The notes beneath the pieces were generated by a model, which saw only the letters and a program-made list of their open reading frames with translations, searched no databases and was not told the DNA's origin. Below are positions 2,855-22,690 of a stretch of DNA of 22,690 bases, piece after piece. The position numbers were made by a program, and so were the translations under genes. Positions within the stretch are counted from its first letter, which is position 1. Every line of letters begins with the position of its first letter. Origin of the DNA: a virus; the IMG/VR virus record IMGVR_UViG_3300042865_000090, positions 1 through 22,690 of that record. One strand, 5' to 3'.

Positions 2855-3013
2855 TTATTTTTTCTGAAATGACTTAACCACCTCTTTAAATTCGCAAATT
2901 CGCTCAATAGGTATCAAAGCCTTGACTATCTTTGCGTTGTTTATCTTCGGGCGTCCTGCTGAAGGGTAGGTAGTTTGCTGAATCTCCGTTGTATATTTCT
3001 TCTCTTTCTTCAT
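2855..3013 (-). CDS. Small 52-residue basic protein with an AGRPK motif, last gene of the ERF operon
   Basis: ATG at 3013-3011 (TTATTATG context) opens a 52-residue frame ending TAA at 2857-2855, just before the terminator. The N-terminal third is basic and disordered-looking (KKEKKYTTEIQQTT), then comes SAGRPKIN, and the C-terminal part (AKIVKALIPIERICEFKEVV) looks like a beta strand followed by a helix. That layout resembles short ribbon-helix-helix or AT-hook-like DNA-binding proteins, but the match is weak and I do not name a family. It overlaps a 67-residue ORF in another frame by about 110 bases. Its fit to the terminator and the natural-looking C-terminus make this frame the better-supported one. 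Confidence 0.6.
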   Translation of the reverse strand: MKKEKKYTTEIQQTTYPSAGRPKINNAKIVKALIPIERICEFKEVVKSFQKK

Positions 3014-3107
3014 AATAAAAATTCGGTATTGTTTCGTTTTCTTTTTTTGAACGGAGTAGCAATATTAACACTACTCCGATACAAGGCATGATTAATACTT
3101 TAGACAT
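2904..3107 (-). CDS. Possible small membrane-anchored protein overlapping the AGRPK gene
   Basis: This 67-residue frame starts at ATG 3107, overlapping the end of the HEXXH gene by 16 bases, and opens with a hydrophobic segment LIMPCIGVVLILLLR (about residues 5-19) followed by a charged, Tyr/Glu-rich tail. The first 31 codons are not covered by any other gene, which argues that it is real, while the second half lies under the AGRPK gene in another frame. It could be a small inner-membrane protein or a chance frame in the spacer. No family is recognised. Confidence 0.4.
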   Translation of the reverse strand: MSKVLIMPCIGVVLILLLRSKKENETIPNFYYEEREEIYNGDSANYLPFSRTPEDKQRKDSQGFDTY

Positions 3108-3466
3108 ATCTTACTGATTTCAATTGCTAATTGTTCGCTTTCTGTTATCAAATCCTCTTCATTCTCTTTCAAAGTATCGTAGTACTTTCTAAAATAGTAG
3201 TGTGTACTTTCATGGAAAATTAAACCAAAGTCAATTAATAAATCATTTGTATAAGCACTTTCATTTATAAATAAATAATATTTTTTTGAGTCTGTTGGTA
3301 ATTGGTTGCACATTCCATCTATGTACGTTCCGCCCTCTTTAATTCTTTCAAGACAATCTATTCTATTTAATCCGTGCAATTCATCAACTTCAAAATAATC
3401 AAACAAACTAATTGCTGACTCACCTACTAATAAGACTAAGTCAGCCTTTATGTCTACTTTAAACAT
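3092..3466 (-). CDS. Putative zinc metallopeptidase-like protein (HEXXH)
   Basis: This 124-residue protein contains LIFHESTHYYF, in which H85-E86-S-T-H89 fits the HEXXH zinc-binding and catalytic motif of zincins. The motif follows a hydrophobic strand-helix segment (LLIDFGLIFHE). Glutamates 15-25 residues further on (EEDLITESEQLAIEI) could supply the third zinc ligand, as in the compact ImmA/IrrE-like and related phage zincins. There is no signal peptide, so it would act in the cytoplasm. It overlaps the upstream gene by eight bases within the ERF operon. A protease cleaving a host regulator is one possibility; a degenerate fold without activity is another. The motif is seen directly; function is inferred. 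Confidence 0.55.
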   Translation of the reverse strand: MFKVDIKADLVLLVGESAISLFDYFEVDELHGLNRIDCLERIKEGGTYIDGMCNQLPTDSKKYYLFINESAYTNDLLIDFGLIFHESTHYYFRKYYDTLKENEEDLITESEQLAIEISKICLKY

Positions 3467-3899
3467 TCTTAATTGATATAGAATTTTTGCTAAATGTTAT
3501 TATCGGACGTTTAAGAATTTCTCCAGTGCTTTCATCTAAACTTGTCAAACTGCTTAAAGCAACTTGCTTATATTTGTCCTCAATCTCTTTTAAATTAGCC
3601 TTTGCGATTTGATACTCCTCAATGTTAGAATAGTCAATCATTCGTCTACCTTCTACTTTAGTAACTTTGAAGTTTCCAAAATTAAAAGTTTTCTCTGTAC
3701 GTTTTTCTGCTTCCTCAATCGCTAAACTTTGCACCTCGATTTTAACTTTCTGAGCGAGGTCCTCAATCTCTTTCGCTTTTCCGTACAATTCTAACGGGTT
3801 TAATTCTCCATTTCTAACTGCTTCGATTAATATTCCGAAGTAGTCTTGCAATGTTGTTGGTGTTACTTCTATTACGCTTTGTCTTTGTAAATTTTCCAT
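3459..3899 (-). CDS. Hypothetical helical protein next to the ERF recombinase
   Basis: This 146-residue protein lies five bases downstream of the ERF gene. It is largely helical and charged, with a long probable coiled-coil stretch (ELYGKAKEIEDLAQKVKIEV, about 38-57) that continues into EEAEKRTEKTF, then a short beta-like part (GNFKVTKVEGRRMIDY) and a second Lys/Glu helix. This layout recalls small phage proteins found beside single-strand annealing proteins, such as Gp157-like helical partners, but I cannot assign it to one with confidence. Its position suggests an accessory role in recombination or replication (inference). Confidence 0.65.
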   Translation of the reverse strand: MENLQRQSVIEVTPTTLQDYFGILIEAVRNGELNPLELYGKAKEIEDLAQKVKIEVQSLAIEEAEKRTEKTFNFGNFKVTKVEGRRMIDYSNIEEYQIAKANLKEIEDKYKQVALSSLTSLDESTGEILKRPIITFSKNSISIKNV

Positions 3900-9239: not shown

Positions 9240-11093
9240 TTATTTAGGTAAAAAGCCTCTGTTAGGCATGTCAATAGGACGTTGGTAAACTCTCGAATCA
9301 TTTACGGGTGCAATTTCACCTAACTTTCTACTTTGTGAAGCGGTGTAAGTTTGTGCAAGTGGTGAATTTACGTCTGATTTTTTTAAATAAGTTTCTCTTA
9401 ACCAATAATGATGACAGTTACCTCCGCCTTTGTATAAGAATCTATCAAATGTGATTGCTCCATTTGGTCCCCATCCGATAGTTCTACCATCTTTATTTGT
9501 ATAATGGTCGCCTAAATCAGAATTACTCATATTAACAATATCCTCTTTACGATAAACTTTATTTTGAGTTGTCATTTTAGAACAAAAAACTCTTGAATCT
9601 CCTGAAGTTTCACCCATATAACGGTAACGAGTTTTAAAAATGTTTCCATCTTGTTCACTTTTTGCATTTCCTCTCGCTATACCTGTACTAACTAATTTTG
9701 CTAAGAATGATTTTTTAGGTTTTAAATTTTCTAATTCTTCATCCAAAGCAATTTCTTCATCATAATCTACTTTGCGAGAATCTACTAAAAGCCATTCATC
9801 GTCTATTTCTTCACCTATTGATTCAAAATCGAATACTTCAGCACTTAATGTTGTATCACTCGCTACTGTTGGTTGCAAATTACTACCACCTTGCTCGGGA
9901 ACTAAACCAACTAAACTTCTAATTTCGTTTGCGGTCATTGATTCAAGTACTTTATTAGCAACTAAAGGGCTTAAACTATTAATGCCGTCAATGATACGTT
10001 TAGAACCCCCATTTGTTAACTCACCGCTATTATCTAAAGGCTGTAAAGGTAAAAATTCAAGTTTTAAACTGATTGAATTAACCGCTAATATTTTATTAAA
10101 TCCTTCTATAATTAACTCTTGAAACGGTCTAATAACCATGTTATCAAATAGTATTGCACTATTCTTTAATTCGTCTGCATTTGAGCTGAAACCCGTACTT
10201 GTTGAAATACCAAATAAAAGTGGTGAAGTTACGTTGTGTCCCACTAAAATTTTGTTTCTCGCTTCATCACTTAAGTATTGATATTGGTCCGCAGCCTTTT
10301 GCAATTGAATAGTATCAATAGTTGTTTTCGATTCGGGGTTATCGTTAAATGAAATAATAACTTTTTTACCCGTAGAACCAGTTAACTTGTTTGTAACGTC
10401 GTCGCTAATTTGTCGCTTCTGGTCAGGGGTCGCTTGTCCATTGTTAAAATTTAAAATACTCGTGGGCGCAAATGAGTTACTAACCTCATTTATAAGATAT
10501 TCACTAACTTTTTCCTCTAATAAACAGTAATCTAAAGCACCTTGATAATCAACATATGAATAGTACTTCATTCCTGCACTATAAGGTTGAATCATTAGAA
10601 TTTCAATCTCACTTTTTGAAGTTCCAAAAGCATCAAATCTGATTGGCTTGTACTCTCTAGTTTTTTGCCAGTTATCTGAATAGTAATAAGCCACTACATC
10701 ACCATCTTCATTACACTTTGCAGAACGGACTAAGTTAACGGGTAAATGTAGAAATTGTTTAACCGTTCTGTCTTTATTGTAGTGTACTTGGATAGCACTT
10801 TGACCCAACATTTTAGTATCTGAAATAATACGTTTAATATCGTCCTTAGAAACTAAACTCAAAAAGTTAGCATAGTCAGTTGGTTTTTGTGAAGCATCTA
10901 AGGCTGTTATTCCACGCCCATAAATAAGTTTGCAAATATTATTTATTACAGCGTTATTAGTAGCCGAATTTTGAAACCTATCAATTAAAAAATTGTAATG
11001 GTTATTACCTTGCCCAAAATCTACCCAACCCTCATTTCTTTGCTCAGTAATTACGGGTGTAGTGTACTGACTTAACTCAATTACTTTATTCAT
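9240..11093 (-). CDS. Portal protein with a MuF-like C-terminal domain
   Basis: This 617-residue protein has a portal-type body (about 1-420): an early GWVDFGQGNNHYNFLIDRF, INNICKLIYGRGI, a stem/clip region with YVDYQGALDYCLLEEKVSEY, and a GISTSTGFSSNADELKNSAI stretch with FDNMVIRPFQELI, all recognisable from Bacteroidetes phage portals. The portal dodecamer would form the DNA channel at one capsid vertex. After an acidic linker (about 415-470) comes a separate domain (about 487-617) with DSRVFCSKM, KVYRKEDI, GWGPNGA and GGGNCHHYW, resembling the Cys/His pattern of MuF/SPP1 gp7-type minor head proteins. So portal and minor head protein appear fused. It overlaps the upstream gene by eight bases. 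Confidence 0.85.
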   Translation of the reverse strand: MNKVIELSQYTTPVITEQRNEGWVDFGQGNNHYNFLIDRFQNSATNNAVINNICKLIYGRGITALDASQKPTDYANFLSLVSKDDIKRIISDTKMLGQSAIQVHYNKDRTVKQFLHLPVNLVRSAKCNEDGDVVAYYYSDNWQKTREYKPIRFDAFGTSKSEIEILMIQPYSAGMKYYSYVDYQGALDYCLLEEKVSEYLINEVSNSFAPTSILNFNNGQATPDQKRQISDDVTNKLTGSTGKKVIISFNDNPESKTTIDTIQLQKAADQYQYLSDEARNKILVGHNVTSPLLFGISTSTGFSSNADELKNSAILFDNMVIRPFQELIIEGFNKILAVNSISLKLEFLPLQPLDNSGELTNGGSKRIIDGINSLSPLVANKVLESMTANEIRSLVGLVPEQGGSNLQPTVASDTTLSAEVFDFESIGEEIDDEWLLVDSRKVDYDEEIALDEELENLKPKKSFLAKLVSTGIARGNAKSEQDGNIFKTRYRYMGETSGDSRVFCSKMTTQNKVYRKEDIVNMSNSDLGDHYTNKDGRTIGWGPNGAITFDRFLYKGGGNCHHYWLRETYLKKSDVNSPLAQTYTASQSRKLGEIAPVNDSRVYQRPIDMPNRGFLPK

Positions 11094-11505
11094 ATATTAT
11101 AAAATCATTTGTCGTTTCTCGTTTGTTATAAATACCCTCATTTACCGTATATGGTAATGATTGATCTGTGGCTAAAACTTTACCTAAAAAACGAGTGTTT
11201 GTTTTTGAATCTCTGTAAATTCTCATTACATAAGTATGCCCCTCAATCAATCCACTAAAAGCAAGTGTAATTGTATGATAGTATTCAGAAGTTGTAAAAG
11301 TAGATACATTATAAGTAACACTTGTGTTTGTTTGTTCATCTGTTAAGTCTAGTTTATTATAGTCAGTATAAGAAGTGTTAACCCTAAAATTAAATATAAC
11401 ATTTGTTTGCTCGTCTTGAATTGGGAAAACGTCGAAATCTATATCCTCAGTTCTAGGAACAAAATTAAAAGTTTGTGCTGTCGTATCCGTTGTTAATACT
11501 ATCAT
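11086..11505 (-). CDS. Beta-rich structural protein of unknown role
   Basis: This 139-residue protein is beta-rich: TTDTTAQTFNFVPR at the start, then NVIFNFRVNTSYTDY, YYHTITLAFSGLIEGHTYVM, and a C-terminal LPYTVNEGIYNKRETTNDFI. The FNFVPR start and the NEGIY...TTNDFIIY end are a pattern I know from small proteins in the structural cluster of Bacteroidetes phages. It lies between the probable major tail protein (with a terminator in between) and the portal gene, whose ATG it overlaps. An Ig-like accessory or decoration protein fits, but the role is not known. Confidence 0.68.
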   Translation of the reverse strand: MIVLTTDTTAQTFNFVPRTEDIDFDVFPIQDEQTNVIFNFRVNTSYTDYNKLDLTDEQTNTSVTYNVSTFTTSEYYHTITLAFSGLIEGHTYVMRIYRDSKTNTRFLGKVLATDQSLPYTVNEGIYNKRETTNDFIIYE

Positions 11506-11538
11506 AGTTATTAAACGATAATGTCTTAAATTGTATTC

Positions 11539-11570
11539 AAAAAAAAAGGCTACCGATTAAGATAGCCTTT
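11539..11570 (-). terminator. Terminator after the probable major tail protein gene
   Basis: On the minus strand AAAGGCTATC pairs with GGTAGCCTTT (10 base pairs, one G-U) across a 6-base loop, followed by nine Ts in total. It lies 20 bases after the stop of the gene at 11590-12135. No matching promoter is visible downstream, so it probably allows read-through to the portal gene. Confidence 0.85.
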
Positions 11571-11589
11571 AAAGTAGTAGTAGTATTTA

Positions 11590-12135
11590 TTAAGAAGTTA
11601 CTAAAGTAGCACCAGTAAACAAAGTAAGCATCGCAGCCTCTGTTGTAGCATCTAATAAATTTGCATAACAAACTTCTTCACCTTTGAACGTTAATGAGTA
11701 CCCATTGAAGTCAGCCATTTTCCCGCCTCCTGAAATTTCACCCCCCACTAGGTCTAAGCCATTCAATAGACCAGCAATATAAAACTTGCCATTATAGTCC
11801 TGCAAAATACAATGAGGCATGGAATAGGCCAATAATTTCACATTTTTTGAAGTTGCAGCATCTTGTTTTTTCAATTTTACACTTAAATTTTGCTCAAAAT
11901 AAGTTGTTCCAGCGATTGGGTCCGCCATTATAGTTTGATTGAAACTATTTTCTCCTTTTAATTCAAATTTGTATAAAGTATCTACGTTTACAATTGTATC
12001 AATTACATCTGTGTTTGTTGCGTCGTATGTAATATCACTTTTTACAATTTGGTTATTGATAAAGTAAAGTGCTTTAAATCCGCCTACTGAATCTTTATCT
12101 TGTTCTTTTCTTCCGTTTGCTATTGTTATCGGCAT
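11590..12135 (-). CDS. Probable major tail (tube) protein
   Basis: This 181-residue protein has beta-rich segments, including DTLYKFELKGENSFNQTIMA, the NLSVKLKKQDAATSKNVKLL stretch, HCILQDYNGKFYIAGLLNGL and a closing MADFNGYSLTFKGEEVCYAN. A KKQDAAT...LL, then DxNGxFxxxG, then GxxMxDxxGYxLxxxGEE layout is shared with proteins of Bacteroidetes siphophages that I regard as tail tube subunits. The gene follows the major capsid gene and both are followed by terminators, as expected for the two most abundant virion proteins. The tail tube role is inferred; a second capsid-associated protein is the alternative. Confidence 0.65.
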   Translation of the reverse strand: MPITIANGRKEQDKDSVGGFKALYFINNQIVKSDITYDATNTDVIDTIVNVDTLYKFELKGENSFNQTIMADPIAGTTYFEQNLSVKLKKQDAATSKNVKLLAYSMPHCILQDYNGKFYIAGLLNGLDLVGGEISGGGKMADFNGYSLTFKGEEVCYANLLDATTEAAMLTLFTGATLVTS

Positions 12136-12149
12136 AATGTTTTTTTATT

Positions 12150-12182
12150 AAAAAAGGGGTAGTGTATTTCTCACCACCCCTT
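12150..12182 (-). terminator. Terminator after the major capsid gene
   Basis: On the minus strand AAGGGGTGGTG pairs with CACTACCCCTT (11 base pairs, one G-U) across a 7-base loop, followed by a short T run. It is the most GC-rich hairpin in the window and lies 24 bases after the capsid gene stop. Confidence 0.87.
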
Positions 12183-12205
12183 AGATTATTAATTTAATTT
12201 AATTC

Positions 12206-13222
12206 CTATCCTCCGTAAAGTACACCTTTAGTAGCTTGTCCAACGTGTGCAGCCATTGTATAGATTGCTCTAATAAATTGAGTATCTCCGTCTGCTACTA
12301 GTTTGTCCACTGTAAAACGAGAAATATCATCTGCTAGGTCCGTCGCCCAAATTACAGCTGCTTTTCTTTGTGCGTAAGCCATTAAATTGTTAGGAGTTGG
12401 TACGAATAAAATCTCTACACCGTTGTAGTAACATCTTGCATCATTTGCTCCTGATTCAAACTCGAAGTTAATTTGTTGTGCTGCTCCTACTGAGTTGTTA
12501 GCAATACGTGCTAATTGTCTCCATGCTCTTGGTGCGTAAATAACTGTTGGCGAAACTGTATCTGCTAAATTTTCCGCTGGTATTGCAGCATACAGTAGGG
12601 CCATTTGCGCCGCTATATTGGAAGAAGTTACCGTTGTTCCCGTTACCTTAATATAACCACCTAAAGCAGAGTTATCATATAACACTTTAGAAAATACACC
12701 ATCAACTAATCCAGCTGTGATTGAACTTACAGCCGTTTGAGTAGCCGCAGTCATAGAACCTTGTGAAGCACCAGGAGTTAATGCAGCAATAGCGGTTTTT
12801 GTAGCCGCTGTAATTCCACCCCAAAAGATTGATTCAGCATCTTGTGAAACTTGTGGCCCATATTGTGCTAATACAGTAGAAGCAAACTCAGAAGATTCAA
12901 TGTTAAATGCTCCAGGATTCATTGAACGACCAAAACGACCAGCTCTTAATGATTCTTGTAAGAATGTTTGTTTGTACTCTAATTTAGTTGGTGTAATAAT
13001 TCTGTCAGTAATGTTGATTGAACCTGAGTTAGATAATGCAGCACCCGTATATAATTGTGCTGTTACGTCCATACCAGCCTCTGTAAAAATTGTTCCTGCT
13101 TTTACGTCAGTTGCAAATGTTACATAGTTGTCTGAAATTGTTTTGTTTGCGAATAATACTTCTTCTAAGATTGGCTCAACTGCTGCGCCTCTTATGTCCA
13201 CTCCTGTTAATGAAATTGCCAT
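12206..13222 (-). CDS. Major capsid protein, HK97-like
   Basis: This 338-residue protein forms the icosahedral shell. It has the Ala/Thr-rich, low-charge composition of a capsid subunit, an N-terminal ILEEVLFANKTISDNYVTF, a KLEYKQTFLQESLRAGRFG stretch, a central low-complexity Ala/Thr/Ser part (about 140-180), VSPTVIYAPRAWRQLARIAN (about 235-254), and a C-terminal DTQFIRAIYTMAAHVGQATK. The length fits an HK97-fold capsid. It lies downstream of an XkdF-like protease and an acidic scaffold-like protein. A strong terminator follows. The identification rests on composition, context and similarity to Bacteroidetes phage capsids. Confidence 0.82.
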   Translation of the reverse strand: MAISLTGVDIRGAAVEPILEEVLFANKTISDNYVTFATDVKAGTIFTEAGMDVTAQLYTGAALSNSGSINITDRIITPTKLEYKQTFLQESLRAGRFGRSMNPGAFNIESSEFASTVLAQYGPQVSQDAESIFWGGITAATKTAIAALTPGASQGSMTAATQTAVSSITAGLVDGVFSKVLYDNSALGGYIKVTGTTVTSSNIAAQMALLYAAIPAENLADTVSPTVIYAPRAWRQLARIANNSVGAAQQINFEFESGANDARCYYNGVEILFVPTPNNLMAYAQRKAAVIWATDLADDISRFTVDKLVADGDTQFIRAIYTMAAHVGQATKGVLYGG

Positions 13223-13225
13223 TGT

Positions 13226-13393
13226 TTATTTGTTTTTATTTTGTTTATAATGTTTTAAATCCTCTATTAACCATTCAATCTGTTCTACGGTTAATTTTCC
13301 TTTGCAATATGTTTTAATTGTTTTGCTTCCAACTGCTTTTAAGAACATTTCGTAATTTACACCCGTTTTAAATGGGTCTACAAAACTATCCAT
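13226..13393 (-). CDS. Small 55-residue protein between scaffold and capsid genes
   Basis: ATG at 13393-13391 overlaps the stop region of the scaffold gene, and a 55-residue frame runs to TAA at 13228-13226, three bases before the capsid ATG. The protein reads DSFVDPFKTGVNYEMFLKAV, then TYCKGKLTVEQIEWLIEDLK and a Lys/Asn tail. It looks like a small two- or three-helix domain. Similar short proteins with a GVxYxxFL start and a LTxEQxxWLxxxLK end occur next to capsid genes in Bacteroidetes phages, to my knowledge without a defined role. Exact packing between two structural genes and the natural-looking sequence support it. Confidence 0.62.
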   Translation of the reverse strand: MDSFVDPFKTGVNYEMFLKAVGSKTIKTYCKGKLTVEQIEWLIEDLKHYKQNKNK

Positions 13394-13949
13394 TCATTCT
13401 ACTTTTTGCGTATCTGTATCTTTCTAATGAAGACATAGATTCAAAGTTAATCACTTCCTTTTTTTCGGGATTGTGTTTGATTGGTTTTACTTCTTCCAAT
13501 TCTACAACCTCAACTACTTCCTCAACTTTAGACAATTCTAAAATCTTTGCTTCCAACTCCTCAATCTTCGCTTCTAACTTTGAGAAGTGTTGCTCCTCAA
13601 CTGTTGAACGAACGATTTTTTTCGCTGTTGTTTGTTGTTGTACTTTCTCCGCTTCAACTGGCACTTCCGTAGGTTCTACTGTTTCAGCTTCTTCCTCTAC
13701 CATTTCAACTGAAGCGATGATACCTTCAACTTCAACCTTTAAAATTCTCCCATCTGCTAACTCATACTCCCCAATCGGCAAAGGTACTGGTTCCGCTTCA
13801 GGCATAACGATAAAAACCGCTTGACCCTCTTCAAAACTTTCCGCTTGGATTGTAGTCATACCGTCCGCTAATGGTAAATCTTCCAATTTTGTTTCCATTC
13901 CTAAAAATGCTTTAATTGTTTTTAATGCTTCTTTAACATTTTCTTTCAT
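13386..13949 (-). CDS. Acidic scaffold-like protein
   Basis: This 187-residue acidic protein has an N-terminal helix (KENVKEALKTIKAFLGME), beta-type segments (GQAVFIVMPEAEPVPLP, GEYELADGRILKVEVEG), a long acidic Glu/Val-rich stretch (about 80-105), and a coiled-coil (KLEAKIEELEAKILELSKVE, about 124-143), then another acidic run and a basic C-terminus (LERYRYAKSRMNG). A protein with acidic middle, coiled-coil and basic C-terminal tail directly upstream of the capsid gene is the usual layout of a capsid scaffold. It would be cleaved or expelled on maturation. No sequence family is named with certainty. Confidence 0.6.
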   Translation of the reverse strand: MKENVKEALKTIKAFLGMETKLEDLPLADGMTTIQAESFEEGQAVFIVMPEAEPVPLPIGEYELADGRILKVEVEGIIASVEMVEEEAETVEPTEVPVEAEKVQQQTTAKKIVRSTVEEQHFSKLEAKIEELEAKILELSKVEEVVEVVELEEVKPIKHNPEKKEVINFESMSSLERYRYAKSRMNG

Positions 13950-14005
13950 AACTTTTTAACATTTAATTATTGATTTGTATTTATTTATTTACTTAACTTA
14001 TTGAT

Positions 14006-14533
14006 TTATAACTCTGTAACTATAACGTTAAAGTGTGCTAATGTAACATTGTTTGAACTTTGATTTTTTATCCATACTTCTAAATAGTCATCAACTGCCA
14101 TATTTGTAACACATTGAATCGAATTAGATTGAGCTTTACCACTACCCGAGCAAGTAACATCAATTTCGCTTGAATCTACTTTAACACCATTCTTGAAAAA
14201 AGCAATATTTAATACGTTATTATTCCCGCTTGTTAATGAAATATTACATTCTGCTTTTACGTTTCTCGAGTTTACTGTATTTGTAACTCTATTGTTTGAA
14301 TGTGTGAAATTATCGTTGTATAAACCTAATGTAGTACTTGAATTTAATTTGTAAAAGTTTGTTGTTGTGATCGTTGTTACTGAATTAGAAACTACATCGT
14401 AATAATTTATAAAACTATTAAATTTACTTCTAACAAGTTGTTGAAGAATGCCAGTTCCATTATCAAAATAAATTGAATCTGTCGCAGAAATATGGGTTGC
14501 TTCTTTGTATCTTACGTTATAGTTTAAACTCAT
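14006..14533 (-). CDS. Beta-sandwich protein, TNF/C1q-like jelly roll candidate
   Basis: This 175-residue protein has an N-terminal half rich in Ser, Thr and Asn and a C-terminal half with NVKAECNISLTSGNNNVLNI, AFFKNGVKVDSSEIDVTCSG, SNSIQCVTNMAVDDYLEVWI and SSNNVTLAHFNVIVTEL. This strand order (SxxNNVLxxAxFKNG...DYIEVWVxN...VTV) is that of TNF/C1q-like jelly-roll domains that occur in Bacteroidetes phage structural proteins. It starts 17 bases inside the end of the protease gene. A capsid decoration protein is one reading, and a head fibre or tail fibre head domain is another. Confidence 0.6.
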   Translation of the reverse strand: MSLNYNVRYKEATHISATDSIYFDNGTGILQQLVRSKFNSFINYYDVVSNSVTTITTTNFYKLNSSTTLGLYNDNFTHSNNRVTNTVNSRNVKAECNISLTSGNNNVLNIAFFKNGVKVDSSEIDVTCSGSGKAQSNSIQCVTNMAVDDYLEVWIKNQSSNNVTLAHFNVIVTEL

Positions 14534-15113
14534 TGATTAAGTCTTTAATTAAATCAATTAATTCTTCTCTATTATCTTCTTCACTCATTTTCAGTTGGTC
14601 CAATCCGTCGAACATTCCTTCTATTGAAATACCGTTTATCTTACCTACTTTAGCAAGTTCCCAAATATCATCGTTATAAACTTTTAACTTTACAGCCCAT
14701 GCACCTTTTACAGCATTTAAATTATAAATATTAGTCTTATCGTTTTTAGGGTCTTCAACAATCCAACTTTCAATAAGACTAACTCCGTTAACTGGCTTTT
14801 CGTGGTCTATTGTAACGTTGTTTGCACGTAAATTCTTCAAATAAAGTTCCTGAACTTTCTCAACTGTTTGCTCTGAAAACTCTATATTAAAATCAATATT
14901 ATCTTTACGTCTTAATATCTTTTTATTCGGCACTAAAGCAAGCCCTATTAACTCCCTTTTTTCTTCATTTACAACTTTTAAATCAACTTGTAAAGAGTTA
15001 AGCATTACCCAATCCTCCTCAATAGCGGGTTTATCTACTAAACTAATTGCGAAAACACCTTCTTTTAATTCGTCTTTAATTGTTAATTCTATCGTTTGCA
15101 GTTCTTTTTTCAT
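14517..15113 (-). CDS. XkdF-like prohead protease
   Basis: This 198-residue protein resembles the XkdF family of putative phage serine proteases. It opens with LTIKDELKEGVFAISLVDKP, and then shows VTIDHEKPVNGVSLIESWIV (about 100-119), in which the His fits the catalytic histidine of prohead proteases, followed by EDPKNDKTN and later KINGISIEGMF (about 158-168), in which Ser of SIEG is the expected nucleophile. An acidic helical tail follows. Such proteases process the scaffold and the capsid N-terminus during maturation. The position, two genes before the scaffold and four before the capsid gene, supports this. The start at 15113 leaves four bases to the tape measure stop. Confidence 0.82.
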   Translation of the reverse strand: MKKELQTIELTIKDELKEGVFAISLVDKPAIEEDWVMLNSLQVDLKVVNEEKRELIGLALVPNKKILRRKDNIDFNIEFSEQTVEKVQELYLKNLRANNVTIDHEKPVNGVSLIESWIVEDPKNDKTNIYNLNAVKGAWAVKLKVYNDDIWELAKVGKINGISIEGMFDGLDQLKMSEEDNREELIDLIKDLINEFKL

Positions 15114-15117
15114 ACTA

Positions 15118-16950
15118 TTACAATGTTGCGTTCCTTACTCTATTCCTATCTAATGATTGTGCTGTTGACATCGCACCACTTACTACATATGCCTGAACGG
15201 GTGCTTGTTTTAATTGGCTCAATTGGTTCAATCCGTTATTACCTACTATATTAAACGAAGGTGCTTGAATTTGTGCGTTATTTCCACCGCCACCGCCCGA
15301 AGGAGTTGAACCACCGCCACCGCCACTAGAACCGCCACCGCTTGAAAATTGTGTAGATGCAATTTTTTTAACATTTAATAATCCAGCAGTCAAAACAACC
15401 CCACCCGCTATACCTTTTATAATTGGTCCACCAGGAGTAGATGCGTATGTTGACATAACAGCCTTATAAGTATCTATTGTTGCGTTTGCTATATTAGCAG
15501 CCTTTTGAATTTTAAATGCTGTTTCTTGTTGTTTCCTAGATTTACCCGCAAATAATTCGGATAAATTAGCAATAATTGTAAATGTATCTTGAACCGCTTG
15601 TAGTTGTTGATTTTGTATTATTTTCTTTTCGGCTGCTACTTTTTTATCATTCGCAATTATTGCTTCTCCCGCTGCCTTATTTGCTGCTGCTGTTTTTTGT
15701 AGTGCTTCAACTTCTGATTTGTGCTTATCTTCATCGAATTTTTTAGCATCTGCTAACTCCTTTGCATCTTCTGCTTGTTGTGATATTCTGTCCGCTTGCT
15801 TCTTTTTAAAAGCCTCTTCATTGTCTGCGTTTATTTTGTCAAGTTTTGTTTTATTATCGGCTACTTCTTTTTTATCTATATCTTTTATTTGAAGTAATAA
15901 ACCAGCCTTATCATTTTCTAATTTTACTAAACCTTTTTTATGCTCTTTAATAACTTCGTCCGCTTTTTTAGAAGTTTCCGAAGGGTCGAAAATTAAGTTT
16001 GCTATTTTATTATTAATACCGTCAAAATCTTTAAGTATTGTATTTACATTAAATTTAGCAATGTCTACTCCTGGTATCTTATTCAAGACTCCTATCGCTT
16101 CGTTGACAAACACAAAAAAGAACTCAGTTAGTTTCTTTTGTGGATAGGTTATAAAGTCAAGGAAACCTTTTAAATATTCTTTATTTCTTTTGGCTGCTGC
16201 AATTTGGTTTTGCTTTGTTACAAAATCATTTTGTAATTGAATTTTAGATGCTAATTGCACCGCTTCAATTTGAGCAATTTTATATTGTAGTATTTGCTTT
16301 TCGCTTTTACCTTGAAGTTTTAAAACGTTATCTTGTTCACCTATTTTATCTAACTTTTCATTTTCTAAAACAACATTTCTATTTACTTCCTCATTAAGTT
16401 TGCGTTGCTCATCACTTACACCGCCTACCAATTCTTTAATGTCGTCCCAATAAGCGTATAAAGTCCCTAAAGCAATTACTAACAAACCTATTCCCGTTGC
16501 TCCTATTGCTGTTTTAATACCCTTAAAAGTATCTATTGCAACCGCTTTTAATTGTTTAAATGAATCTCTCGCTTCTCCAAGTCCTTGCAAACCTTGAGAA
16601 ATAGCCATAGCACTTTGAACCTTTAAAAGTTGCTTTTCTAAATCTTTAGACTCAACACCAACTAAACCTAATGCACCTTGATAAGCAGCGAATCCACTCG
16701 CTACACCACCCAAAGAACTTGTTAAAGCGTTGAATTTAGCGTCGGGGTTGAATCCTTCCGTTAATGCTTTTGCATCTCCTATCGCATCTTTTAACTCTGC
16801 GGCTTTTTTAGCTGCTTTAACCGCTTCGTCCGAAGTTGCTCCAAACTTTGCCGCTAAGGCTTCAACTTCTTTTTGTGCTTCTCTAAGTTGCTTTTTTAAC
16901 GGTTCAACGTTCGTCTTTACTTCTAAATTTACTACTTTAGTTTCTGCCAT
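15118..16950 (-). CDS. Tail tape measure protein
   Basis: This 610-residue protein sets tail length by spanning the tube. It has an N-terminal coiled coil (VEPLKKQLREAQKEVEALAA, about 15-34), a Gly/Ala-rich part, a hydrophobic helix (TGIGLLVIALGTLYAYWDD, about 152-170), a long Lys/Glu/Ala coiled-coil region (about 330-450), a second hydrophobic Gly-rich stretch near residue 510 (KGIAGGVVLTAGLL), and a poly-Gly/Ser linker (about 537-558). If it obeys the usual length rule for siphophages, the tail would be about 90 nm long (inference). Its ATG overlaps the TAA of a 49-residue gene (TAATG). It lies between tail proteins and the head protease. Confidence 0.87.
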   Translation of the reverse strand: MAETKVVNLEVKTNVEPLKKQLREAQKEVEALAAKFGATSDEAVKAAKKAAELKDAIGDAKALTEGFNPDAKFNALTSSLGGVASGFAAYQGALGLVGVESKDLEKQLLKVQSAMAISQGLQGLGEARDSFKQLKAVAIDTFKGIKTAIGATGIGLLVIALGTLYAYWDDIKELVGGVSDEQRKLNEEVNRNVVLENEKLDKIGEQDNVLKLQGKSEKQILQYKIAQIEAVQLASKIQLQNDFVTKQNQIAAAKRNKEYLKGFLDFITYPQKKLTEFFFVFVNEAIGVLNKIPGVDIAKFNVNTILKDFDGINNKIANLIFDPSETSKKADEVIKEHKKGLVKLENDKAGLLLQIKDIDKKEVADNKTKLDKINADNEEAFKKKQADRISQQAEDAKELADAKKFDEDKHKSEVEALQKTAAANKAAGEAIIANDKKVAAEKKIIQNQQLQAVQDTFTIIANLSELFAGKSRKQQETAFKIQKAANIANATIDTYKAVMSTYASTPGGPIIKGIAGGVVLTAGLLNVKKIASTQFSSGGGSSGGGGGSTPSGGGGGNNAQIQAPSFNIVGNNGLNQLSQLKQAPVQAYVVSGAMSTAQSLDRNRVRNATL

Positions 16951-17099
16951 TATTTCACCGCTTTTAATTGTCTAACTCCTTGCTTATATGCTTCTTTTAT
17001 CGTTTTAGGTATTTCATTTTTACCCTTAACAATATCAATCGCTTCACTTTCTCCGTAGAAGTTAGATAAGGCTAACATTTCTAATATATTCTTTATCAT
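16950..17099 (-). CDS. Small 49-residue protein upstream of the tape measure gene
   Basis: ATG at 17099-17097 overlaps the TGA of the 781-residue gene (ATGA), and the frame ends with TAA at 16952-16950, overlapping the tape measure ATG (TAATG). It encodes IKNILEMLALSNFYGESEAI, then DIVKGKNEIPKTIKEAYKQG and a Lys-rich end. It is probably helical and soluble. The two coupled junctions at its ends strongly suggest a real gene. A small protein before the tape measure gene may help in tape measure folding or initiation, but that is only a positional guess. Confidence 0.65.
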   Translation of the reverse strand: MIKNILEMLALSNFYGESEAIDIVKGKNEIPKTIKEAYKQGVRQLKAVK

Positions 17100-19441
17100 T
17101 CTTGTAGTATTTCAATTGTATAAGCATCTGTTGAACCGTCTCTCATCGTTTCATCTACATCAATTACTATTGTTGCATCGTCTCCTTGTTGGCTTCTTAG
17201 ATTAAACGAATCTTGACTAATTAGTATTTCACCACTTTGAGAAGTTAAAATATATTTAGGGTTAGGATTGGAAGGAATCGTAACTAAAACATTTGTATCT
17301 GTTGTAATTGTAGAAGTACTAAATGTAACTCCGGGTGTTACTGTCGATATGTTGCTACTTTGGGCTGTTGTGCTTAAACCAACTCCAACCTCAACCGTTC
17401 CACCTAAATCACCAACTGTAAATAAACCCGTTGAATTTCTAATCGGTCTGAAATCGTTTATTAATTCTAATTGTACCTTACCGTTTGTGATCTCAGAATT
17501 AATTGTGTTTATTAAATATCTTTTGTCTTTAATAACTAAACGATCATTTAACTTTAAAGAAGTAATTAATGAAATTGGGAAGTATGCTGTTAATTTTGTT
17601 AATCTATTTTTTGAGTTAAATAAATTCGATAAGTAACCAAAGTAATAATTAGCAAATAAACTATTTTCAATTGGCTTGTCATACCAAGTACTTGTTTCGG
17701 GTGCAAAGTTTAAACTATAAATTTGATTGTTGTAACTTAAATCATTACCAAATAATGCTAAATTAGTTTCTGTTGTTTCTGTCGTTCCATCATAAAATCT
17801 AATTGCTGTTGTCATTGCACCGTTATAATATAAAAGCACTGGCTTCGGGATATAAGATTTGAAGTCGGGATATTTTGTCAAACTATATCCAACTTGCATA
17901 GGTGTCGTGCTAAACTTACTAAATTGTAAATTTTCAAATGGTAGTTTAACGGTATAATCGCCTCCGTCGTAATCGTAATTCAAAGAAGTATCTCCCCACT
18001 CTCTATTTGAAGCATCTCCAAAGGCTCTATTAATAAAACTTTCGCTTTTCTCGTAGTTAAAAGAAATATTTTTGTATAATGGTAGCCTATCAATATTAAT
18101 ATCATTAACATCTACATACTTTGTAATGTCAATTACAGCACCTTTAGAATACCAATCATCTATTGGCTCAATTTGAAAAGTATTGAAAGCGGTTGCATAA
18201 CAAGTTAAATTGAACTGTTTTAATATACCGCTAAAGAAATCCGCTACTGTTATGTTTGGAACATTTAAATAGATTGAGTTACTAGACGAACTCATTGCTA
18301 AAGCTGTGCTTTTAATTGCGTTAACTGTACCTATTAATTGAGTCGCTACACCTCCGTAATTTGTATATCTTGACTTACTTAAATTTAGAGTATATTTTAA
18401 ATTTATAGAACTTTCAGAACGTACTTTTAACTCAATATAATTAAAAGCATTACCTAAAGTTATAATTGAATAAACAATACTATAATTTGAAGTATCTAAA
18501 TTATAAGTTACTGTATTATTTAATAACCCGTTTAAATAAACATCAACATAAATAATAGTGCCAGGTGAATGAATGCTATCAATCCTAACAGCTAAACTAT
18601 GTATAACATATTCGTTTACAGTTCCAAACAAATTAAAAACACTAGTAGTTGAATCGTAAGATGGTGAACCTGTTGTATCTGTAAAAGTATCTGAAGTCAT
18701 TAAATAACCATTCATTTTATTGTCTTGGTTATCCGTATTTTTACACCAAAGAAACAACTTTTTGAATAACTCAGAATTTAGAAAGTTAGAATTGAAAGTC
18801 AATCCGAAATCTGTTTGTATTGCTTCAAATATCTTTGATACTTTTATAGCGGGAAACAACTCATTCCAAGTTAATCGACCAGTTGACGTGCTTAAATCTG
18901 TACTTGTTGCATCTCCATACGTCCAATAACCATCACTTGAAATTAAAGGGTAACGTACATCGTAATCTGTCGTAGTGTCTGTAATTCTCGCTTTAACTCC
19001 AGCAGCATTGTATGGGTTAGATATTGCTGAATAGTTTAAGTCTGAAAGTTTTTTATTACTAAATGTATCTTTTAAACTAACTAAATCACCATAGAAAGTT
19101 ATTGTATAGTGTTCTGCTTTGCTATTCTTAACAATAGAACCCTCTAACTGAATTTTTCCACTTCTAAACGGTGTTTTGCCTACTTCAATATAGGCATATC
19201 GTCTTAAGTTATGATCTATTGCATTATCTACATCGTTCTGATAAAAGTATTCAAATATCTTATCATTGTTTGGAGTAGATGGAACGGTAAACGATTGCGA
19301 GAAATCTGTATAAACTTTAGATAAATCTTGAATGTTTTGAATTGAACTTGAAATGTTAATAAATTCATCTTTAAATAAATCAATTTTGTCGTAATTGTTA
19401 ACCGTAGTTCCCTCAATATAAATATCAACTTCCCTATTCAT
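17096..19441 (-). CDS. Large tail/baseplate-type structural protein (Bacteroidetes phage type)
   Basis: This 781-residue protein is beta-rich. It opens with NREVDIYIEGTTVNNYDKID and LFKDEFINISSSIQNIQDLS, then KVYTDFSQSFTVPSTPNNDKI, IFEYFYQNDV and RRYAYIEVGKTPFRSGKIQL. This N-terminal block (FKDE...SSIQ...S.V.TDF...FTVPA..NN.KIF.H.Y) is conserved in large structural proteins of Bacteroidetes phages. The C-terminal region is a low-complexity Thr/Ser part ending in DDATIVIDVDETMRDGSTDA. It is the largest gene in the window, upstream of the tape measure gene, so a distal tail, hub or baseplate component that contacts the tail tip is likely. I do not know a solved homologue. Confidence 0.72.
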   Translation of the reverse strand: MNREVDIYIEGTTVNNYDKIDLFKDEFINISSSIQNIQDLSKVYTDFSQSFTVPSTPNNDKIFEYFYQNDVDNAIDHNLRRYAYIEVGKTPFRSGKIQLEGSIVKNSKAEHYTITFYGDLVSLKDTFSNKKLSDLNYSAISNPYNAAGVKARITDTTTDYDVRYPLISSDGYWTYGDATSTDLSTSTGRLTWNELFPAIKVSKIFEAIQTDFGLTFNSNFLNSELFKKLFLWCKNTDNQDNKMNGYLMTSDTFTDTTGSPSYDSTTSVFNLFGTVNEYVIHSLAVRIDSIHSPGTIIYVDVYLNGLLNNTVTYNLDTSNYSIVYSIITLGNAFNYIELKVRSESSINLKYTLNLSKSRYTNYGGVATQLIGTVNAIKSTALAMSSSSNSIYLNVPNITVADFFSGILKQFNLTCYATAFNTFQIEPIDDWYSKGAVIDITKYVDVNDINIDRLPLYKNISFNYEKSESFINRAFGDASNREWGDTSLNYDYDGGDYTVKLPFENLQFSKFSTTPMQVGYSLTKYPDFKSYIPKPVLLYYNGAMTTAIRFYDGTTETTETNLALFGNDLSYNNQIYSLNFAPETSTWYDKPIENSLFANYYFGYLSNLFNSKNRLTKLTAYFPISLITSLKLNDRLVIKDKRYLINTINSEITNGKVQLELINDFRPIRNSTGLFTVGDLGGTVEVGVGLSTTAQSSNISTVTPGVTFSTSTITTDTNVLVTIPSNPNPKYILTSQSGEILISQDSFNLRSQQGDDATIVIDVDETMRDGSTDAYTIEILQE

Positions 19442-20478
19442 ATAATATCGTTTGTAAAGTTAAATTCTAAAGGATAGTTAATCATTTTATTATTGATATT
19501 CTTTTGCAAGTCTATTTGTTTAGTGTTTAGTTTTGCAGGTCTATTGTTTACCAATATCCTATCACTTAATAAAAGTTGTTTAATCGTTTCCTTAAATGAT
19601 TCATCTACCCAACCGCTATTAACTTTTATTGATTCTGTCCCGTTAATATTAAATGTTTGTACTAAATTCTCTTGAGTGTTAAATGTCGTTTCGTTTGCTC
19701 TATAATTTTTATACTCAGAGTTAGAAACATTCATAGAATCAACTGAAGCACCTAAGAAAAACTCTCTTTGAAAAGCACCGTATTTATTTACAAAATCAAT
19801 AGTTACACTTCCGTATTTATTCGCTTCGATAGGTTTAAAATAATACGTTTTTAAAACTGTATTTGAAGCGTTTAAAATCTCTAACTTATTACCGTTAGAT
19901 AAGTAACTAGAATAAACTCTAAACGGTTGCAAAACTCTTGAATCTACACTTGTATAAGTTCTATTTGTTCCCGTTACCAAGTCAGTATATTTATATTTAT
20001 AACCGCTTACATTATCAACCGATAAATCACCAGGATTTAAGTCTTTATTATAATAATAAGTACCCTCTGGAAGTAGATAAGCCCCTAAGTCAATATTAAT
20101 TCCTTCAGTATTATAAACGTAACCATTAAAGCAAGTGTAACTAACCGTATCAATTAACGTATATGTAGAACCTATTAATTTATATCGTTTAATTCTAGCA
20201 AAACAAAAACTTTGCTCACTCATAAAATTCGGCTCAGTAGTTGTGTTTACAGTATAACTTAATGTATTTAAAAAGTTTTGTATATATTCCGAAATATCAA
20301 AATAACAAGTTGGAGCATTTGAAGAAGATATTAATTTACTTAGTGTGTAACTCGGTAACGTTGGATATACAACAACTCCATTTTGTGGTTTTTTTAAATA
20401 AATTTCAACTTTAGCACCAATCTGACTGGCTTCGTTGATTTCAATAATATACGGACTTTTTGCAAATATTCTACTCAT
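19438..20478 (-). CDS. Tail/baseplate-associated structural protein, Bacteroidetes phage type
   Basis: This 346-residue beta-rich protein opens with FAKSPYIIEINEASQIGAKV and has a C-terminal module NINGTESIKVNSGWVDESFK, ETIKQLLLSDRILVNNRPAK, then NKMINYPLEFNFTNDII. The C-terminal combination of an induction-to-strand segment with WV-E---TIKQLLLSD and a final INY-LEFxF strand occurs in similar-sized structural proteins of Bacteroidetes phages beside the 781-residue type. It overlaps both neighbours by four bases (ATGA-like junctions), forming a coupled tail block. A baseplate or tail-tip part is the best reading; no precise function is known. Confidence 0.68.
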   Translation of the reverse strand: MSRIFAKSPYIIEINEASQIGAKVEIYLKKPQNGVVVYPTLPSYTLSKLISSSNAPTCYFDISEYIQNFLNTLSYTVNTTTEPNFMSEQSFCFARIKRYKLIGSTYTLIDTVSYTCFNGYVYNTEGINIDLGAYLLPEGTYYYNKDLNPGDLSVDNVSGYKYKYTDLVTGTNRTYTSVDSRVLQPFRVYSSYLSNGNKLEILNASNTVLKTYYFKPIEANKYGSVTIDFVNKYGAFQREFFLGASVDSMNVSNSEYKNYRANETTFNTQENLVQTFNINGTESIKVNSGWVDESFKETIKQLLLSDRILVNNRPAKLNTKQIDLQKNINNKMINYPLEFNFTNDII

Positions 20479-21044
20479 TTTACTTTTGGTTGTTCTATTG
20501 TACTATTAAATAACGTAATTGCATCTAATCCGTATTTATCAATTAATTCTATTGGTAATTTACTAAATGCCTTTTCAAATGGTTTAGTAAAAAATAAACT
20601 TGGTTTAATTCCATGCCTAAATATTGAACGAGCGATTAAAAATTTTAAAGTTTGTCTACTTATAAATTTACCGTCCTTTCCTCTTGGTGCTATTCCTTTA
20701 CGAACTATCCAATTATCTAGTTTGCTTGGTGGTGGCATTCCTTTTAAACCTCTTACACCACCTTTTGAAGTATAACTATACTTCCCATCTCTAACTACTT
20801 TTTTAGGGTTTCCGTTTTTATCTTTTCCTGCGGGACCAACTCCATTAACTCCTTTGTCCTGGTAATGTCCATAATCTTCCATTGAGAAGTAAACACCAAA
20901 AGAATTTTTCATTAACTTACTTTCACCCTTTATAGAGTTATATAGTTTTTTACTACTATTCTTTTTTAAGTTTGTTAAATTGCTTCTACTTTGTTGTATT
21001 ATATACTTAACAAACTTTTCTAACTCTTTTTCAGTTTCTAACAT
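20475..21044 (-). CDS. HK97 gp10-like / neck-type tail completion protein
   Basis: This 189-residue basic protein has an N-terminal helix (LETEKELEKFVKYIIQQSRS), then GVYFSMEDYGHYQDKGVNGV (about 49-68) and a Gly/Lys-rich loop, a central LDNWIVRKGIAPRG, and LIARSIFRHGIKPSLFFTKP (about 135-154). A YGxYxDxGVxG segment with a later FxxARSIFRHGIKPxxFF is the pattern of HK97 gp10-like proteins of Bacteroidetes phages. Such proteins sit at the head-tail joining region. It is followed by tail genes and preceded by the 149-residue protein. The function is inferred from family resemblance. Confidence 0.7.
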   Translation of the reverse strand: MLETEKELEKFVKYIIQQSRSNLTNLKKNSSKKLYNSIKGESKLMKNSFGVYFSMEDYGHYQDKGVNGVGPAGKDKNGNPKKVVRDGKYSYTSKGGVRGLKGMPPPSKLDNWIVRKGIAPRGKDGKFISRQTLKFLIARSIFRHGIKPSLFFTKPFEKAFSKLPIELIDKYGLDAITLFNSTIEQPKVK

Positions 21045-21045
21045 C

Positions 21046-21495
21046 TCAATAAATTACCATTGTATTTTCTGTGGATATATCAAATGTCATAGTCCAACCC
21101 GCTACGGAATCGGTGAATTTATCAAAGAATGGTTCGCACGTTGCATCTGAAAGTATATCGTAATTTATCTTTAAACTACCCCTATACATTTGCTCATACA
21201 ATCTGTTAAGTATTGCTAAAGTTGAATTCATTACATCGTCTTCATTATTATTGCCAACATACAAAGTAACTGTTTCATCTTTGCTAAAATCAACTGCATC
21301 CATACAAATGATAGAAATATTGTAATTAACAACCTGATTTGAAAACGTTGTATTGTTGAACATGATATGACAAAGTGGAAACATATTTTGTTTCTGCAAT
21401 AATACTGCTGATAAATCCCCTTTAGTAACTTGATTAACTAATGGGTCGGTGTTTAATGTATCATATAATTTTGTAGATATATCGAAGTAACTCAT
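21046..21495 (-). CDS. Tail terminator/completion-like protein
   Basis: This 149-residue protein reads SYFDISTKLYDTLNTDPLVN, QKQNMFPLCHIMFNNTTF, VVNYNISIICMDAVDFSKDE, then NNNEDDVMNSTLAILNRLYE and a C-terminal EPFFDKFTDSVAGWTMTFDI. Proteins with a FPLxHIMxNN, FxxSIxxMDxVDxSKxE, NNNExDVLNxxLAxLNRL and FxxxxAGWTxTFD layout are found in Bacteroidetes phages in the slot of a tail terminator. Its ATG overlaps the TGA of the -1 frame of the chaperone gene (ATGA), which is key evidence for that frame. The exact role is inferred from position. Confidence 0.7.
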   Translation of the reverse strand: MSYFDISTKLYDTLNTDPLVNQVTKGDLSAVLLQKQNMFPLCHIMFNNTTFSNQVVNYNISIICMDAVDFSKDETVTLYVGNNNEDDVMNSTLAILNRLYEQMYRGSLKINYDILSDATCEPFFDKFTDSVAGWTMTFDISTENTMVIY

Positions 21496-22261
21496 TTTAA
21501 TTGATTTTTCTTTATTTGATTAATTTCTATTTGTGTCTTTTGCTTCTCGAAAGTTAGAAAGTTAAGGACGGTAAATAATTCAAGTTTGAGAACTTCATCG
21601 AACTTTCTAAGGTCTCCTTGAGCGACTTGATATATTGATTGATACCAACCCCATTGTTTGCTAAATTGAGCTTCTTCACTAAAATCTGTTGGTTGCTCAT
21701 CGTCAATGTCTTGAGGCTCTTCTCTAAATAATTTACTGTAGCCTTCAGTAACTCCTTTTCTAAATTCAAAAAAAAAACGTGTGCTGAAAGAGCAACTGAT
21801 AAAGGTGTGTACTTCATCATCTCTCCAAACTCATCGACGTTGTTAAATGGTGCTATTAAATACTGCCCTTTCTTATTCTTTTCAATTATAGGACGATATA
21901 AAACCGCTAAGGCTTTATGAAACGAATCAAAGTTTACTATATGAGTTTCTGCTTCAATATATTCTTCCCAACTAATCTTATCGAAGTTAGGAATTAAGCC
22001 AAGTTCTAATTCGTTAATTTTAAATGTCGTTTGTAGTTTTGGAATCTCAGAAAATAGTTTATTAAAATGATTAACCAATTCAACCATATCATTGAATTTA
22101 ATCTTAACTACTTCTTTCAATTCAATGCCACAAAATATCTGAATCATCTTTTGCCCTAAAAATTCAGGGTCCGTATTGTTCTTGCAAATATCCATATATT
22201 TTTGGTAGTGAAGCAATGGAATTTCACTTAATGAAGTTGGAATTGTTAAATTTAATTTCAT
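21492..22261 (-). CDS. Tail assembly chaperone-like protein, predicted -1 frameshift product (256 residues)
   Basis: The frame begins at ATG 22261 and, if the ribosome or polymerase slips by -1 in the T10 run at 21777-21768, continues with EFRKGVTEGYSKLF, EEPQDIDDEQPT, FSKQWGWYQSIYQVAQGDLR, KFDEVLKLELFTVLNFLTFE and a Lys-rich end, stopping at TGA 21494-21492. The new 91 residues look like a natural domain with the AT-rich codon choice of the neighbours, and the TGA overlaps the next ATG. The shared part (1-165) is helical with VNFDSFHKALAVLYRPII in the middle. A G/GT-type pair, in which the extended form bridges to the tape measure protein, is the likely analogy. It lies upstream of the tail genes. 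Frameshifting is inferred. Confidence 0.6.
21554..22261 (-). CDS. Tail assembly chaperone-like protein, unshifted product (235 residues)
   Basis: In the zero frame the gene encodes 235 residues. The body (LHYQKYMDICKNNT, KMIQIFCGIELKEVV, NELELGLIPNFDKISWEEYI, AVLYRPIIEKNKKGQYLIAP) matches a helical protein type found just after terminase or near the tail genes of Bacteroidetes phages. After the T10 run the zero frame stays open for another 70 codons (LNLEKELLKATVNYL, NNGVGINQYIKSLKETLE), but with AAG, GAG, CTC and TCG codons that are unlike the AT-ending codons used elsewhere, as expected if the other frame is the one under selection. Both products may be made, the short one in excess. If only one is real, the -1 form is better supported. 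Confidence 0.72.
   Translation of the reverse strand: MKLNLTIPTSLSEIPLLHYQKYMDICKNNTDPEFLGQKMIQIFCGIELKEVVKIKFNDMVELVNHFNKLFSEIPKLQTTFKINELELGLIPNFDKISWEEYIEAETHIVNFDSFHKALAVLYRPIIEKNKKGQYLIAPFNNVDEFGEMMKYTPLSVALSAHVFFLNLEKELLKATVNYLEKSLKTLTMSNQQILVKKLNLANNGVGINQYIKSLKETLESSMKFSNLNYLPSLTF
21768..21777 (-). promoter_or_regulatory. T10 slippery run, candidate programmed frameshift or transcriptional slippage site
   Basis: Minus-strand GTT TTT TTT TTG contains ten consecutive Ts. T TTT TTT in zero-frame phase fits the X XXY YYZ heptamer for -1 frameshifting, and a run of this length also permits polymerase slippage. Codons 162-165 of the chaperone-like gene cover it. No obvious stem-loop follows directly. 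Confidence 0.6.
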
Positions 22262-22292
22262 AGTTTTTAAACGTTTAATTTTGTAAATGTGT

Positions 22293-22690
22293 TTAGTAAA
22301 TAGAATAGTTACCTTTGTTTGGATTGCTTAATTGATAAGATACAGCATACCTAACAGCATCAAGTGCATGGTTAAATTTATCTATCGGAGTTTCTGACTT
22401 ACGCTCTAACCATGAGTAATTATTCAACTCTTTTATTAAATCAATCGAATCGCAATCTATTATCATTTCGTAATCTCTTAACATCTCAATACCTTCTGTA
22501 ATCTTATGCTTAACACAAGCCACAACATTATTTCCTTGATGTTTTAATTCACTTATCAAACGTGGTTCTGCATTGTCTCCAACTATTAAACCGCCTTTAG
22601 TAAAATGATTGTTTAACCTTGCAAGTTTTGTCGTTACTAATTGAGTTTGATAAATATGTAACTTTAAATAAATTAACTTTCTACCCTTAT
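22293..22690 (-). CDS. terL: Terminase large subunit, C-terminal nuclease domain (partial, runs off right edge)
   Basis: The frame is open from the right edge (first full codon at 22688) to the stop at 22293, giving the last 131 residues. It reads LARLNNHFTKGGLIVGDNAE, then PRLISELKHQGNNVVACVKH, IEMLRDYEMIID, LIKELNNYSWLER and PIDKFNHALDAVRYAVSY. This is the RNase H-like nuclease domain of the large terminase: the Asp of VGDNAEP and the Asp of FNHALDAVRYA are catalytic-site carboxylates, and the LIKELNNYxW motif is typical. The protein cuts concatemeric DNA and drives packaging. A start at the internal TTG (22559) would be an artefact of truncation; the ATPase domain lies outside the window. 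It is the first recognised gene of the late region here. Confidence 0.93.
   Translation of the reverse strand, partial: KGRKLIYLKLHIYQTQLVTTKLARLNNHFTKGGLIVGDNAEPRLISELKHQGNNVVACVKHKITEGIEMLRDYEMIIDCDSIDLIKELNNYSWLERKSETPIDKFNHALDAVRYAVSYQLSNPNKGNYSIY

Follow-up and report, generated by a model that had tools for sequence, protein, structure and literature searches.

The DNA analysed here, referred to as the window, is a stretch of 22,690 bases from a virus record (IMG/VR IMGVR_UViG_3300042865_000090). The features relevant to this study, listed in the order in which they are read, are the following:

22293..22688, minus strand: C-terminal part of the large terminase, the upstream neighbour (Terminase_3C, E 5.4e-7, and terminase PHROGs)
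21554..22261, minus strand: zero-frame ORF of the slippage gene, 235 aa, made up of the N-domain and the zero-frame tail (ORF list; phrog_32199, E 4.4e-8; AlphaFold, pLDDT 80)
21770..22261, minus strand: segment common to both predicted products, 164 codons through GTT TTT TTT (alignments; invariant residues including a YRP motif)
21768..21777, minus strand: T10 (U10) slippage run (T9 or T10 in 240 of 240 tabulated loci, 70 classes)
21492..21770, minus strand: T domain, i.e., the -1-frame C-terminal domain, 92 codons plus TGA (WGWY motif kept in all homologues; matched in position, when aligned, to the C-terminal end of single-ORF relatives)
21554..21769, minus strand: dual-coding overlap, with the zero-frame tail (71 codons plus stop) lying over the T domain (selection on both frames)
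21046..21495, minus strand: downstream gene, 149 aa (phrog_30964, E 1.2e-9), whose ATG overlaps the -1-frame TGA
15118..16950, minus strand: tape-measure protein, the expected partner if the slippage gene is a tail chaperone, not adjacent to it (phrog_9483, E 1.6e-15)

The T10 run at 21777-21768 is read in the phase GTT TTT TTT TTG. From the ATG at 22261, the zero frame continues for 235 codons up to the stop at 21556-21554, and the -1 frame adds about 91 residues past the run before its TGA (21494-21492), which shares bases with the start codon of the downstream gene (ATG, 21495-21493). Past the run, 71 codons are open in both frames. An earlier note on this DNA had described the same T10 run, two frames open for about 70 codons and the TGA/ATG overlap, all of which were reproduced. 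The order of the structural genes on the minus strand is unusual (9240-22688): the terminase is followed by the slippage gene, tail genes and the tape measure, and only then by protease-like, capsid-like and tail-tube-like genes, with the portal last. The slippage gene sits near a DNA-packaging enzyme, as it does in this group of Bacteroidota phages.

The arrangement is conserved. When IMG/VR was first searched for the fused protein, 80 homologues were retrieved, whose best segments were 48-96% identical, and all 80 show a net -1 shift between the N- and C-parts, T9 or T10 at the junction, and both frames open across it. The run and the -1 shift were found again in a wider search, in one Bacteroidetes MAG contig, which was the single contig obtained from a search of a genome collection, and in the isolate Nonlabens phage P12024L; every locus from these later searches that was not interrupted by a contig end has the -1 arrangement. 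A scan of DNA patterns by the WGWY motif of the -1 domain, in which the run was not used, added 80 loci, and all but three of these have T9 or T10, those three being ended by a contig edge. The 240 tabulated loci comprise 217 with T9 and 23 with T10, and none with a shorter or longer run. It should be noted that some contigs recur between searches, so that the 70 non-redundant classes (62 T9, 8 T10) are a better count than the 240 loci. Thus, a run of at least nine A/T is present at the switch in all tabulated loci, and the codon TTC is absent from the run across them. One locus outside this table, L177, reads GGT TTT TTT TTG and has nine Ts in another phase; a search with the L177 protein gave no additional members of its clade. 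The isolates P12024L and P12024S, with a protein identity of about 26%, carry the same gene with a T9 run and a -1 T domain, and the profile of phrog_32199, the family of P12024 gp40, matches the zero-frame protein in 31 of 31 members tested as well as in the window. Because the same net -1 layout recurs across the homologues, it lies far beyond chance. These results strongly support the recoding that the earlier note had proposed; a T run of at least eight with both frames open in homologues, which it had named as the check, is what was found.

Homopolymers are error-prone, and distant relatives do possess a single ORF. The main alternative considered earlier was therefore a homopolymer indel or a pseudogene, i.e., a gene that truly has one frame and in which a T has been lost or gained. 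This we reject as having practically no probability, because the same net -1 and a T9 or T10 run recur in every locus, across independent assemblies and two isolate genomes, because none of the close relatives shows a repaired frame, and because both frames are under selection. An assembly or sequencing indel as such is ruled out by the 240 loci and the two isolates.

Based on the sequence, ordinary expression would yield the zero-frame protein, consisting of the N-domain and a helical tail of 71 residues, and a one-base slip at the U9/U10 run would yield a longer form, in which the same N-domain is joined to the 92-residue -1-frame domain. We infer that both proteins are made. In the AlphaFold model of the zero-frame form (mean pLDDT 80), the N-domain is fairly confident and runs into a long helix that spans the slip point, and the tail forms a second, less certain helix; the -1 domain is modelled as helical and is confident from about residue 32. 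Searches of Pfam, PDB sequences and PDB folds with the gene products gave nothing significant, an absence that does not amount to a new fold. A fold search of viral models with the N-domain retrieved the P12024S protein and many other phage proteins, and several viral models of 226-267 residues match the N-domain and -1 domain models alike.

Following up a weak fold match to Flavobacterium phage 6H, we identified relatives of about 260-300 aa that are encoded by a single ORF in Duneviridae (Flavobacterium phage 2A, Ingeline_1 gp5, laban6-1), Helgolandviridae (Leef_1 gp2), a Microcystis phage and Bacteroides phage BT-TP2 (gp31). These relatives share the N-domain and the T domain over their whole length, and differ in having one continuous frame, no run and no second C-terminus. 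Against these proteins, the fused profile gives an alignment of 243 columns (score 101.8, E 2.4e-14), whereas the zero-frame profile matches more poorly (score 65.9), and the -1 domain alone matches weakly (E 0.012) but in the correct position. In addition, phrog_25418 is matched by six of the six single-ORF relatives and by two members of the window's family (best E 5e-4). As the single-ORF relatives align end to end with the fusion, the -1 fusion is best read as the full-length form, and the longer product would correspond to what related phage families encode in a single ORF as their full-length protein. Homologues with a continuous -1 domain and no run, which had been named beforehand as evidence against recoding, therefore do exist, but among distant relatives only; all closer relatives keep the run, and we thus regard the single-ORF state as a difference between phage families and not as a refutation. 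In phage 6H itself, the relative (L302, 10352-10927) is 191 aa long, versus one 882-nt ORF in 2A and FPSV-D15; the aligned stretch differs from that of the sister phages by 2 bases, pointing to an indel in 6H, either an error or real. In GenBank, the P12024L and P12024S loci (L001 and L002, both 3001-3695) are annotated as two hypothetical proteins, gp40 and gp41 in P12024L, the second of which starts inside the -1 frame.

The zero frame, counted from the first slip codon, is open for 51-93 codons in 66 of the 70 classes. When the -1 frame was resampled with synonymous codons, a zero frame open over such a length was obtained with p <=0.05 in 30 of 31 lineages and with p = 0.08 in the other. 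Observed synonymous difference relative to that expected amounts to 0.7-0.9 across the N-domain, drops to about 0.3 on reaching the run, holds at 0.5-0.7 beyond it and is back to about 0.85 near a frequent end point of the zero frame, with a second dip at the extreme end of the -1 frame. We compared substitution classes in 57 disjoint pairs, expressing rates per possible change; all close pairs were also analysed. The silent rate in the N-domain is 0.126. Changes that are silent in the T domain and alter the zero frame occur at a rate of 0.051, which is 0.40 (95% 0.35-0.45) of the N-domain silent rate, i.e., they are 2.5-fold rarer, and T-silent changes that would create a zero-frame stop occur at 0.006, or 0.12 (0.02-0.24) of the T-silent zero-frame-changing rate. 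Among substitutions that change the T domain, those silent in the zero frame occur at 0.025 and those changing both at 0.010, a ratio of 0.40 (0.32-0.48). Resampling and substitution classes together rule out a chance open frame.

Could the reduced silent divergence stem from a nucleic-acid element (RNA or DNA) within the overlap, the zero-frame tail itself being nonfunctional? The constraint on silent sites is indeed greatest in the first 20 codons past the run. Changes silent in both frames, however, proceed at the full rate (0.317, on just 122 sites), T-changing substitutions favour those that are silent in the zero frame, and RNA structure is no greater than in shuffled sequences, which make this explanation improbable. 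Two protein-coding frames account for the substitution pattern, which an RNA element would not produce. Judged by this pattern, the zero-frame tail is under purifying selection, and the overlap is dual-coding, specifying two overprinted alternative C-termini that would be read from one DNA stretch, each of them kept by selection. The earlier note, whose proposal of recoding is strongly supported, missed the selection on the zero-frame tail, which the substitution classes revealed. The exceptions to purifying selection on both frames are the P12024 clade and L147, which have 16-25 and 19 zero-frame codons past the slip, respectively; a long overprinted tail is therefore a property of most of the group and is not universal. 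The 19-codon tail of L147 (2501-3246) compares with about 78 codons in its near relatives, and may be a natural loss or an error. The third frame behaves differently: past the run, the +1 frame stays open for a median of 2 codons (71 sequences), and in 60 of the 71 it is shut exactly two codons past the run, so that deletion of one U would yield a third, truncated product. The early closure may follow from the conservation of Phe-Arg codons. Taken together, we estimate a probability of about 85% that this is a programmed two-product gene in which both C-termini are functional.

Which machine slips is a separate matter. RNA polymerase may add one U to the transcript, after which the ribosome would read the longer mRNA normally; alternatively, as for lambda G/GT, the ribosome itself may shift by -1 at the in-frame heptamer U_UUU_UUU, runs of nine or more Ts then arising only from flanking hydrophobic residues. 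Based on sequence features, we consider slippage by the polymerase the likelier of the two, by a modest preference, and ribosomal frameshifting a strong competitor that falls somewhat short of even odds. The run is strictly 9-10 Ts long and never below nine, yet runs of 7 or 8 would suffice for the ribosome. This length equals that of the RNA-DNA hybrid, given as 9-10 bp by Atkins et al. (PMC5009743), and according to Baranov et al., many bacterial genomes show selection against A/T runs at a length of nine (PMC1088944). L177 may be viewed as a compensating case, in that it retains nine Ts, albeit in another phase, despite GGT as its first slip codon; this favours the polymerase and counts against the ribosome. 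In the other genes of these genomes, runs of at least eight Ts or eight As are avoided in all three phases, and runs of at least nine Ts number 2 in about 1,300 other ORFs versus about 35 expected from codon shuffles (copies of the slippage gene were removed from this count by reading the list, the unfiltered totals of the script being higher); such avoidance could equally reflect replication slippage.

Stimulatory RNA structures are common, although not obligatory, in -1 ribosomal frameshifting. Beside the run, no RNA structure was detected either upstream or downstream, the mean z being about 0 on both sides in 70-71 sequences compared with shuffles under a model of pseudoknot-free folding, and this again is more in line with the polymerase than with the ribosome. 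On the other hand, the G/GT frameshifts that have been characterised are ribosomal (PMC5009743), every tabulated locus contains the in-frame U_UUU_UUU heptamer (X_XXY_YYZ), and hydrophobic columns often hold T at the second position, 18 of the 55 mostly-T columns of the N-domain being fully T. In the literature searched we found no phage tail genes with transcriptional slippage. A parallel exists in Shigella spa13, where the extension produced by transcriptional slippage runs at its end into the following gene (PMC5009743), as does the extension here. Like spa13 and Thermus dnaX, the gene contains an A/T run of about nine; unlike in these, polymerase slippage is here only a candidate, and a conserved overprinted tail is not described for them in the literature searched. 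The earlier note had overlooked transcriptional slippage, a serious rival to ribosomal frameshifting.

The earlier note had also called the gene G/GT-like. Like lambda G/GT and its frameshifting relatives, it is one gene with a conserved slip site near the end of the shared part, at which a -1 extension of the upstream ORF would give a minor, longer form. It differs in that the run is U9-U10 and not a heptamer, and in that the frames overlap by 216 bases, both selected, compared with a 19-base overlap of the annotated G and T genes in lambda. A homology search gave no match to the lambda G and T families. Nor is the gene flanked by those for the major tail protein and the tape measure: in the window, the terminase precedes it, and the tape measure comes four genes later. 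The Ingeline_1 relative lies between an adaptor and the tape-measure gene, with the latter two genes downstream. Further matches are weak: phrog_166 ('tail protein') in 7 of 31 members (best E 5e-4; not found in further records searched), ORF12 of phage p2 in one profile match (E 0.029), and named chaperones in the fold search (E 0.12-0.24). A tail-chaperone role is plausible and would fit the two-product design, the position in Ingeline_1 and the weak tail-protein and p2 ORF12 matches, while the terminase neighbour and the lack of a lambda G/T match count against a tail role. By analogy, we consider it slightly favoured that the product pair acts in tail assembly as lambda G and GT do. The claim of a G/GT-like gene is thus supported for the way of working, not for membership: we do not file the gene as a G/GT member because one defining feature, the gene position, differs. 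Among the closest known counterparts are gp40-gp41 of Nonlabens phages P12024L and P12024S (phrog_32199), which share the T9 run, the -1 T domain and the place after the terminase, and differ in a zero-frame tail of 25 codons past the slip and in being annotated as two genes.

Conserved two-product recoding can be extended to a large Bacteroidota phage group whose database entries list either a single truncated gene or two hypothetical genes. A further feature, of which the literature searched gave no report, is that selection acts over about 50-90 codons on the two alternative C-termini of a recoded phage gene at once. A search of open-licence papers, which constitutes weak evidence, likewise gave no report of recoding of this gene or of dual-coding tail chaperones. 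A more far-reaching reading, to which we give somewhat less than even odds, is that this is a phage assembly gene with polymerase slippage on an obligatory U9-U10 run and fully overprinted C-termini, both of which are needed. If true, a ratio so far known to be set by ribosomal frameshifting would be set by a transcript-level switch across a large Bacteroidota phage group. The strict run length and the availability of the isolates P12024L and P12024S make polymerase versus ribosome slippage directly testable.

Finally, the leader in front of the slippage gene (22302-22259) is about 80% identical over 44 bases to a second copy at 8739-8694 on the minus strand, which precedes the ORF 8696-8244. 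Both copies hold ACGTTTAAAAA before the ATG, and the repeated leader is perhaps a promoter or start signal.
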